A DNA stretch of 64,000 bases from Streptomyces sp. SAJ15. GTDB lineage: Bacteria; Actinomycetota; Actinomycetes; Streptomycetales; Streptomycetaceae. A program made the translations under genes and the position numbers. The stretch lies in assembly GCF_007595705.1 (NCBI RefSeq), contig NZ_NISY01000002.1, positions 310,001-374,000 of the forward strand, given 5' to 3'. This document shows, in pieces, positions 59,159-61,456 of the stretch; positions within the stretch are counted from its first letter, which is position 1; the number at the start of each line of letters is the position of its first letter. The notes beneath the pieces are model-generated. The model saw nothing but the letters and a program-made list of their open reading frames with translations. It was not told where the DNA came from and did not search any database.

Positions 59159-61132
59159 GTGCGAAGAAGACCACGGTCCCGCGCCGCCCGCATCGCCACC
59201 GCGGCCGCCCTGTCCCTGCTCGTCGGCCTCGCCGGCCACCTCGGCGCCGATGCCGCCACCGGCGCCGTCACCGGGCCCGACGGCTACGGCCCCCCGATCC
59301 CGTCGCTGCGCGGCGCGAGCCTCTACCGCCCACCCGTCGACGAGGCCGCGCGCCGGCAGCTGCGCCGGCTGACCCGGCACGGCGCCTACGACGACGCCGC
59401 CACCCTCTTCGCCATGCTGCGCACCCCGCACGCCGTCTGGTTCGGCGACCAGTCCCCGGACGAGGTCGCCTGGCACGTACGCGACACCACCCGCCGCGCG
59501 GCCCGGCGGGACGAGGTCCCCGTGCTGGCCCTCTACAACGTCCCCGGCCGTGACTGCGGCAACTACTCGGCAGGCGGCGCGCGGGACACCGCCGCGTACC
59601 AGGAGTGGATCGACGCCATCGCTTACGGGATCGGCCACCGCGAGGCGATCGTCATCCTCGAACCCGACTCCCTGGCCCTGCTGCCCTCGGACTGCCCGCT
59701 GCCGGCGCGGACCGAGGAGAGCGGCACCGTCACGGGCTCGACGGAAGCCGCTGAGGGCTCGACGGAAGCCGCTGACGGCTCCGCCGAGCCCGCCACGGGG
59801 TCCGAGGACCCCGCGGCGGGTGGCGGTGAACAGCCGGCGGAAGACGGGCGTCCGACAGCGGGGACGGTACCGGGGCCGTCGGCCGAGGCCGAGGGGCAGC
59901 CGGCCCCGGAGACCGCGGCCGAGACCACGCCCTCCGGCGACCTGGCGGCGTACGCGGCCTCCCGCAGCGGATACGCCGCGGCGCGGGCGCCGCGCACGGT
60001 ACGGGGGCCGGAGGGGCTGGCGCTGTCGCGGGACGGATCTCCGTCGTCACCGGACGGCTCCCTGTCGGCGCCGGGAGCGTCGTGGACGCCGCCACCGACT
60101 GACGTGCCGCAACCATCGGAGGCTCCCCAACCGCCCCGTCCCTCGGTGATGCCGCTGGAACCACCCGCCATCGCCCCGGGCCCGGGACCGCGTCAGGAGC
60201 CGCCGCGGCCCCCGACGCCCGCCCCGACGCCCGCCCCGGCCCCCGAGCACAGCCCGACCCCAGACCCGACCCCAGACCCGACCCCAGGCCCGACCACGGG
60301 CCCGAGCCCGACCCCGGACCCCGGCCCACACTCCTCACCGTCCGTCTCCCCGCCCGTCGCGCCGCATCCGGACGCGGAGCTGGCGGAACGCCGTACGCGG
60401 GCGCGGTACGCGGAGATCAACCACGCCGTCGACGCGCTGGAGGGGCTGCCCCGGACCAGGGTCTACCTCGACGCGGGACACGCGGGCTGGCACGCGGTGT
60501 CCGGGATCGTGCCGCGGTTGCGCGAGGCGGGCGTCGACCGCGCGACCGGCTTCTTCGTCAACGTCTCCAACTACCAGCCCAACGAGGTCAACGATTGGTA
60601 CGGCCGACTGATCTCCTCCTGCCTCGTGTACGCGGGCCGCGGCGGCGACCCGGCGCGTTGTCCCCACCAGGACTGGCCGCGCTCTCAGGCCCGGGACTGG
60701 CTGGACGAGCACCTCGGACCGCTGGACCCGGTGCGCATGAAGCACTTCGTCACCGACACCAGCCGCAACGGGCAGGGCCCGTGGACACCCCCTCCCGGCC
60801 GCTACCGGGACCCGCAGGACTGGTGCAATCCGCCCGGCCGTGGCCTGGGGGTGCGCCCGACGACCCACACGTACGACCCGCTGCACGACGCCGCGCTGTG
60901 GGTGAAGACGCCCGGGGAGTCGGACGGTCTGTGCCTGCGCGGCACGGAGGGACCGGTCGACCCGGAGTGGGGGGCGCCGGACCCCAAGGCGGGGGAGTGG
61001 TTCCCCCAGCAGGCGCTGGAGCTCGTACGCCTCTCCCGGCCACGGCTGCGGCCGGACTGGCTGGACGTGGCGCACGCCCACGGGGAGGCGCTCTTCTCCG
61101 AGCTGCCGGTGATCGACTGGTGGGGTTGGTAG
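59159..61132 (+). CDS. Secreted GH6-family endoglucanase-like enzyme interrupted by a long low-complexity insertion
   Basis: A 657-aa exported protein starting at GTG 59159 (RRRPRSRAARIATAAAL) with AGGA upstream and a signal peptide to about residue 33. GH6 (cellulase) motifs are all present: LYNVPGRDCGNYSAGGA (Asp132), VILEPDSLAL (Asp170), VYLDAGHAGWH, GFFVNVSNYQ, VTDTSRNGQGPW, and ALWVKTPGESDGLC with the catalytic-site Asp. Between residues about 181 and 405, directly after the EPD motif, about 220 residues of Glu/Ala/Ser then Pro/Thr-rich sequence (TPDPTPDPTPGPTTGPSPTP) replace what is normally a short stretch. Two 7-residue repeats (GSTEAAE, GSTEAAD) lie near its start. It probably hydrolyses beta-1,4-glucan outside the cell if the insertion loops out. 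Confidence 0.85.
   Translation: MRRRPRSRAARIATAAALSLLVGLAGHLGADAATGAVTGPDGYGPPIPSLRGASLYRPPVDEAARRQLRRLTRHGAYDDAATLFAMLRTPHAVWFGDQSPDEVAWHVRDTTRRAARRDEVPVLALYNVPGRDCGNYSAGGARDTAAYQEWIDAIAYGIGHREAIVILEPDSLALLPSDCPLPARTEESGTVTGSTEAAEGSTEAADGSAEPATGSEDPAAGGGEQPAEDGRPTAGTVPGPSAEAEGQPAPETAAETTPSGDLAAYAASRSGYAAARAPRTVRGPEGLALSRDGSPSSPDGSLSAPGASWTPPPTDVPQPSEAPQPPRPSVMPLEPPAIAPGPGPRQEPPRPPTPAPTPAPAPEHSPTPDPTPDPTPGPTTGPSPTPDPGPHSSPSVSPPVAPHPDAELAERRTRARYAEINHAVDALEGLPRTRVYLDAGHAGWHAVSGIVPRLREAGVDRATGFFVNVSNYQPNEVNDWYGRLISSCLVYAGRGGDPARCPHQDWPRSQARDWLDEHLGPLDPVRMKHFVTDTSRNGQGPWTPPPGRYRDPQDWCNPPGRGLGVRPTTHTYDPLHDAALWVKTPGESDGLCLRGTEGPVDPEWGAPDPKAGEWFPQQALELVRLSRPRLRPDWLDVAHAHGEALFSELPVIDWWGW
59735..59776. 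repeat. 21-bp tandem repeat (2 copies) inside the GH6 gene
   Basis: GGCTCGACGGAAGCCGCTGA plus one base is repeated exactly except the last base (59735-59755 and 59756-59776), encoding GSTEAAE and GSTEAAD at the N-terminal edge of the low-complexity insertion. Confidence 0.85.
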
Positions 61133-61180: not shown

Positions 61181-61456
61181 ATGACCGCGCTGATGAGCCG
61201 CTCGCCGGCCGGGCCGCGCACGGAGCCGCCGGCCCGCACGCGCTCGCGGCTGGACCGCCAGCCGCCCCCGCTCCCCGACCCGGTGCCGCCGACCCCGCCG
61301 CCGCCTCCGATCCCGGACCCGGACAGCCCCGTCCCGACGCCGTCGCCGAACCCCGTGCCCAGCCCGCCCCCCGAGCCGGCCCCCGGGCCGTCGCCGGACC
61401 CGGTGCCGCGGCCCCCGGGCCCCGACCCGTACCTGCGCCGCGCGGCCGGCGGGTGA
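61181..61456 (+). CDS. Proline-rich small protein
   Basis: A 91-aa protein (MTALMSRSPAGPRTEPP) with GGAGG 5 bases before the ATG, 48 bp after the GH6 gene. About a third of the residues are Pro, in PPPLPDPVPP and PSPNPVPSPPPEP-type runs that resemble the linker inside the GH6 protein. There is no signal peptide, no Cys and no folded-domain signature. It may be an intrinsically disordered protein, or an unexpressed open frame favoured by composition, but the good ribosome binding site and spacing support expression. Confidence 0.5.
   Translation: MTALMSRSPAGPRTEPPARTRSRLDRQPPPLPDPVPPTPPPPPIPDPDSPVPTPSPNPVPSPPPEPAPGPSPDPVPRPPGPDPYLRRAAGG

Follow-up and report, generated by a model that had tools for sequence, protein, structure and literature searches.

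A long, predicted disordered insert within the catalytic barrel of GH6 endoglucanases from one Streptomyces clade

Results

A GH6 gene with a divided catalytic domain

The window, a 64,000-nucleotide stretch of the genome of Streptomyces sp. SAJ15, carries near its end a gene for a glycoside hydrolase of family GH6 whose catalytic domain is divided by a long segment of unusual composition. The gene and its parts are as follows.

59159..61132, + strand: GH6 endoglucanase gene, an open reading frame of 657 codons encoding a product with no CBM
59294..59695, + strand: first part of the GH6 barrel (about residues 46–179), with D132, the catalytic D170 (EPDS) and the conserved Cys133 and Cys179
59696..60397, + strand: insert of 234 residues (residues 180–413), acidic and predicted to be disordered
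59702..59926, + strand: Glu/Ala/Ser/Gly-rich part of the insert, including a perfect 21-bp tandem repeat
59927..60000, + strand: conserved island PSGDLAAYAASRSGYAAARAPRT, identical in two strains, with a predicted helix
60185..60370, + strand: stretch of the insert rich in Pro, Thr and Ser, where 12-bp repeats code for PTPD/PTPA, resembling the PT linkers between cellulase domains
60398..61051, + strand: second part of the GH6 barrel (residues 414–631), with D438 and D589

The gene starts with GTG downstream of an AGGA-type ribosome site, and its product begins with a Sec-like signal peptide of about residues 1–33 (both read by eye). The match of the protein to the Pfam family PF01341 scores 212 bits (cut-off 27) and falls into two separate segments (59390–59695 and 60389–60940). 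As the earlier note on this DNA had reported, the catalytic motifs of the family are complete: D132 (PGRDC), D170 (EPDS), D438 (YLDAGH) and D589 (PGESDG) are all present, and they are invariant in an alignment of 59 sequences. The nearest solved structures by sequence, Mycobacterium tuberculosis Cel6 (PDB 1up0/1uoz) and Thermobifida fusca Cel6A (1tml), share the barrel, the motifs and the cysteine positions of the window enzyme, but have a short loop where it has 234 residues. Sequence match, motif aspartates and predicted fold together identify the product as a GH6 endoglucanase, with putative cleavage of β-1,4-glucan, and as an otherwise ordinary member of its family.

Two further GH6 genes in the same genome (G000:C7:173507–174274 and G000:C64:218149–218943) are both of a short-loop type, with 17 residues from EPDA to the next helix. 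Directly 3′ of the window gene lies a Pro-rich open reading frame of 91 codons (61181–61456, + strand; product sequence RQPPPLPDPVPPTPPPPPIPDPD...), which recurs in G058, another genome of this species, and has no match in a Pfam search. Its DNA has Pro-rich repeats in common with that of the insert, and its PPPLPDP sequence resembles an LPPLPDP motif found in inserts of the sister clade described below. A search of the window for a CebR-type operator of cello-oligosaccharide control, allowing up to two mismatches to the consensus, gave no match.

The insert is repetitive, acidic and poor in hydrophobic residues

The insert begins after Cys179, nine residues beyond the catalytic aspartate of the EPD motif, and runs to the helix ARYAEIN, adding about 225 residues to an interval that spans 8–26 residues in 83 of 92 aligned distinct homologues (mostly 11–12, and 10–12 in most orthologues). 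The coordinates first proposed for it (59697–60374, residues 180–406) prove right to within about ten residues. Its placement near the EPD motif also stands, although not directly after it, as a well-modelled stretch, S-LALLPSDC, intervenes and ends in Cys179. This cysteine is near-invariant, and we take it to form a disulfide with Cys133, given the conservation in the alignment and by analogy with GH6 structures.

Proline accounts for 24% of the insert, Ser and Thr for 20%, Ala for 15%, and Asp and Glu for 13%, whereas bulky hydrophobic residues and Cys make up 8%, compared with 29% in the core. In-frame tandem repeats of 21 bp and 12 bp occur within it; for example, the perfect 21-bp repeat at 59734–59775 encodes GSTEAAE/GSTEAAD. 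The C-terminal half, with PTPAPTPAPAPEHSPTPDPTPDPTP, resembles the PT linkers between GH6 and CBM2 in Cellulomonas endoglucanases. The island LAAYAASRSGYAAARA (59927–60000) provides the only predicted helix of the insert (residues 260–275, pLDDT about 71).

The barrel is predicted to fold around the insert

In an AlphaFold2 model of the window protein, built from 59 sequences, pLDDT exceeds 90 for most residues of the two barrel parts but stays under 50 for most of those in the insert. The model superimposes on 1up0 with a VIA-align Z score of 37.9 and an rmsd of 2.0 Å over 292 of 293 residues, and its Z scores against GH6 structures range from 32 to 38 (33.9 for 1tml). The model of L110, a protein from the sister clade, agrees in these respects but lacks the helix. 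The GH6 barrel is thus predicted to be intact, with the insert looping out in disordered form, and both model and composition agree with the earlier proposal of a linker-like disordered segment inside the barrel; the fold prediction suggested at that time gives no sign of a broken barrel. The barrel would still fold because the insert starts just past the conserved Cys133–Cys179 pair and stops where a regular helix begins, so that both ends are fixed. A domain shuffled into place, also raised earlier, is not supported: a Pfam search of the insert at E 1 returned no match, neither of the two models shows the insert folding into a domain (in each, its pLDDT is mostly below 50), and the sequence shows growth by repeats. 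The same results lead us to reject a folded domain inserted in the barrel in the manner of Xyn10C.

Aligned with GH6 structures, the window protein has its insert emerging from the barrel behind the strand that carries the catalytic acid, on the side that in the GH6 fold is presumably the substrate face. A long exposed segment predicted to emerge at this point might serve as a proteolytic switch, being cut after secretion to yield a two-chain barrel with altered access to the cleft. We consider this very improbable, as no conserved protease motif was recognised in the inserts and their sequence varies freely between species.

The insert is present, in frame, in a second strain

In G058, a complete single-contig genome of the same species, the gene for this protein contains the insert too, and in frame, which rules out a frameshift or assembly error. 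The two strains differ by four indels, all of whole codons and all within the insert. GC content at codon positions 1, 2 and 3 is 0.77, 0.76 and 0.85 in the insert and 0.73, 0.53 and 0.93 in the C-terminal core. The open frame, the third-position value of 0.85 and retention in the second strain argue that the insert is more than a product of chance. Pairwise dN/dS is 0.38 for the insert and 0.08 for the C-terminal core (the value of 0.58 for the N-terminal half is based on few changes), which, together with the whole-codon indels, indicates that the insert changes more quickly than the C-terminal core does, yet stays in frame. The insert is real but modest lineage-specific variation, and no error.

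Long inserts mark one group of Streptomyces enzymes

A scan of GTDB contigs with peptide seeds found 58 relatives, all with 17–36 residues between EPDS and the next helix, and suggested that the insert was unique to this genome. A search of 393 Streptomyces genomes with the C-terminal core as query, which found a close orthologue in 46, overturned that impression; the peptide seeds of the first scan probably miss insert carriers. Besides the window species, long inserts occur in G055, G204, G424, G412, G096, G400 and G069, and a fragment with a long insert lies at a contig end in G397. At least eight Streptomyces species therefore carry 147–239 residues of acidic, Pro/Ser/Thr/Ala/Glu-rich sequence at the same point of the protein and at the same locus, and every carrier insert is net acidic (−19 to −40) and poor in hydrophobic residues.

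When the columns of the insert are excluded from tree building, the nine carriers with a complete gene, from eight species, form one group (SH-aLRT 98 with 92 rows; bootstrap/SH-aLRT 99/98 with 72 rows). XdhC lies upstream and CorA downstream of the GH6 gene in seven of seven sister carriers, as in the window. Many short-loop orthologues (for example L008, L010 and L011) also have the order NCS2–XdhC–GH6, so short and long forms represent the same gene at the same locus. Judged from these sequences, the insert is a clade trait of one Streptomyces GH6 group. The comparison of insert lengths among Streptomyces homologues called for in the earlier note thus finds a same-site insert as a normal feature of relatives, the outcome that note had named as counting against its reading.

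Smaller expansions of the same loop, of 15–26 residues, appear elsewhere on the 92-row tree, which suggests that the site is permissive. L148, L138, L041, L032 and L029, in other Streptomyces clades, have expansions of 16–26 residues.

One gain or two

The window insert and those of the sister clade have position, length class and acidic, hydrophobic-poor composition in common, but not sequence. Alignment of the window insert with that of L095 gives 53 identities (53.4 ± 4.4 for shuffled sequences) and with that of L110 also 53 (47.7 ± 5.0 shuffled), whereas two inserts from within the sister clade share 60 (42.4 ± 3.9 shuffled) and are clearly homologous. As the identities of the window insert fall within the shuffled range, we reject detectable homology to the sister-clade inserts, and it is possible that sister lineages each acquired an insertion independently at this site. 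The core-only tree is consistent with a single gain.

The inserts of L110, L152, L146, L153, L157 and L154 contain two copies of an LPPLP-type motif, one around the middle and one towards the end, as a possible short linear motif or duplication. The inserts of the sister clade showed no counterpart of the island LAAYAASRSGYAAARA. The helical island, or a short motif of the LPPLPDP kind, could in principle dock the enzyme to the cell wall, cellulose or a partner protein, and the repetition of the motif in the sister clade and the predicted helix of the window protein speak for such a binding element. We nevertheless regard this as very improbable: the motifs are not common to the window species and the sister clade, and the insert contains no known Pfam domain. 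Anchoring, as the earlier note had imagined it, is not borne out by inspection of the protein by eye, in which no transmembrane segment, lipobox or sorting signal was seen.

The main rival explanation is neutral expansion, in which slippage in GC-rich DNA lengthened an insertion-tolerant surface loop that now persists without function. The in-frame tandem repeats, the variation in length between 147 and 239 residues, the high divergence of the inserts and their faster change (dN/dS of 0.38 against 0.08) all fit neutral drift, as does the lesser growth of this loop elsewhere on the tree. However, the insert persists in all nine sampled carriers, even though core divergence among them reaches about 40%; each insert is acidic and hydrophobic-poor; homology of the insert is detectable across the sister clade; and the island is kept between strains. 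Neutral slippage accounts for the repeats and the divergence, and less well for retention in every sampled carrier. We hold it to be a serious possibility, though on balance a doubtful one.

Likeness to O-mannosylated linkers

The insert combines Ser and Thr with surroundings rich in Pro and Ala, and the same genome encodes a PMT-family protein matching PF02366. That family also matches glycosyltransferases of other function and, among 14 control genomes, has a match in 8, which makes the assignment as Pmt a provisional one. In Streptomyces coelicolor, glycosylation sites favour Ala, Pro and Gly surroundings, the putative secreted endoglucanase SCO2838 is an O-glycoprotein, and the SCO4847 glycopeptide SATAASPSAEASGEAGGTGK, which the N-terminal Glu/Ala/Ser/Gly half of the insert resembles, carries nine hexoses (PMC6593405). 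SCO2838, unlike the window enzyme, is a predicted lipoprotein. The PT-repeat linkers of Cellulomonas GH6 enzymes carry up to 32–65 mannoses (PMC11727336, PMC12757957), and the PMT of M. tuberculosis prefers Pro-rich acceptors (PMC12331936). By analogy with these systems, the insert is probably O-mannosylated, and the glycosylation suggested in the earlier note is plausible.

Discussion

We propose that a secreted, CBM-less GH6 endoglucanase has, in one Streptomyces clade, had the loop between the strand of its catalytic acid and the next helix expanded by in-frame repeats into a disordered, acidic segment of 147–239 residues rich in Pro, Ser, Thr, Ala and Glu. This segment would correspond, within a single domain, to the O-mannosylated linkers that actinobacterial cellulases have, forming a glycosylated, negatively charged bristle. 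Such a bristle could have several functions. First, it might keep the enzyme soluble and resistant to proteases. Second, standing at the substrate face, it might tune contact of the enzyme with cellulose or the cell wall. The likeness to PT linkers and to the SCO4847 glycopeptide, the glycosylation of SCO2838 and the PMT-family gene favour a surface loop grown into an internal, probably O-mannosylated bristle; with glycosylation and function argued from analogy, we put the chance that this account is right at about even. A stronger version, which we think unlikely, holds that a mucin-like bristle beside the catalytic acid sets, through its length and glycosylation, contact of the cleft with cellulose or the organism's own envelope glucan, and that a linker within the catalytic domain replaces the usual arrangement of CBM and linker.

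The comparison with known systems makes the arrangement clearer. The Cellulomonas GH6–CBM2 enzymes Celf_3184 (CenA) and Cfla_1896 have PT-rich disordered segments like the window insert, which in their case are heavily O-mannosylated (PMC11727336, PMC12757957). In contrast to the window segment, which lies within the catalytic domain of an enzyme without a CBM, those linkers join two domains. Glycoside hydrolase barrels are already known to host large inserts in their strand-to-helix loops, as folded CBMs: in Xyn10C-like GH10 xylanases such as Pm25, a barrel is interrupted by CBM4 domains and remains active after excision of the insert (PMC7848910). Both these xylanases and the window enzyme are (β/α)8 glycoside hydrolases with a large insertion of this kind, but the former accommodate folded binding domains and the latter a segment predicted to be disordered and free of domains. 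Our search of the open-access literature found no description of a GH6 barrel with a long disordered insert.

More broadly, this clade and its short-loop relatives offer natural pairs of one enzyme at one locus with and without the insert. Such pairs could reveal what role long disordered inserts have within a catalytic barrel, and could show if O-mannosylation in bacteria extends to segments inside catalytic domains. The GH6 loop also appears to tolerate very large insertions, which may be useful for enzyme engineering.
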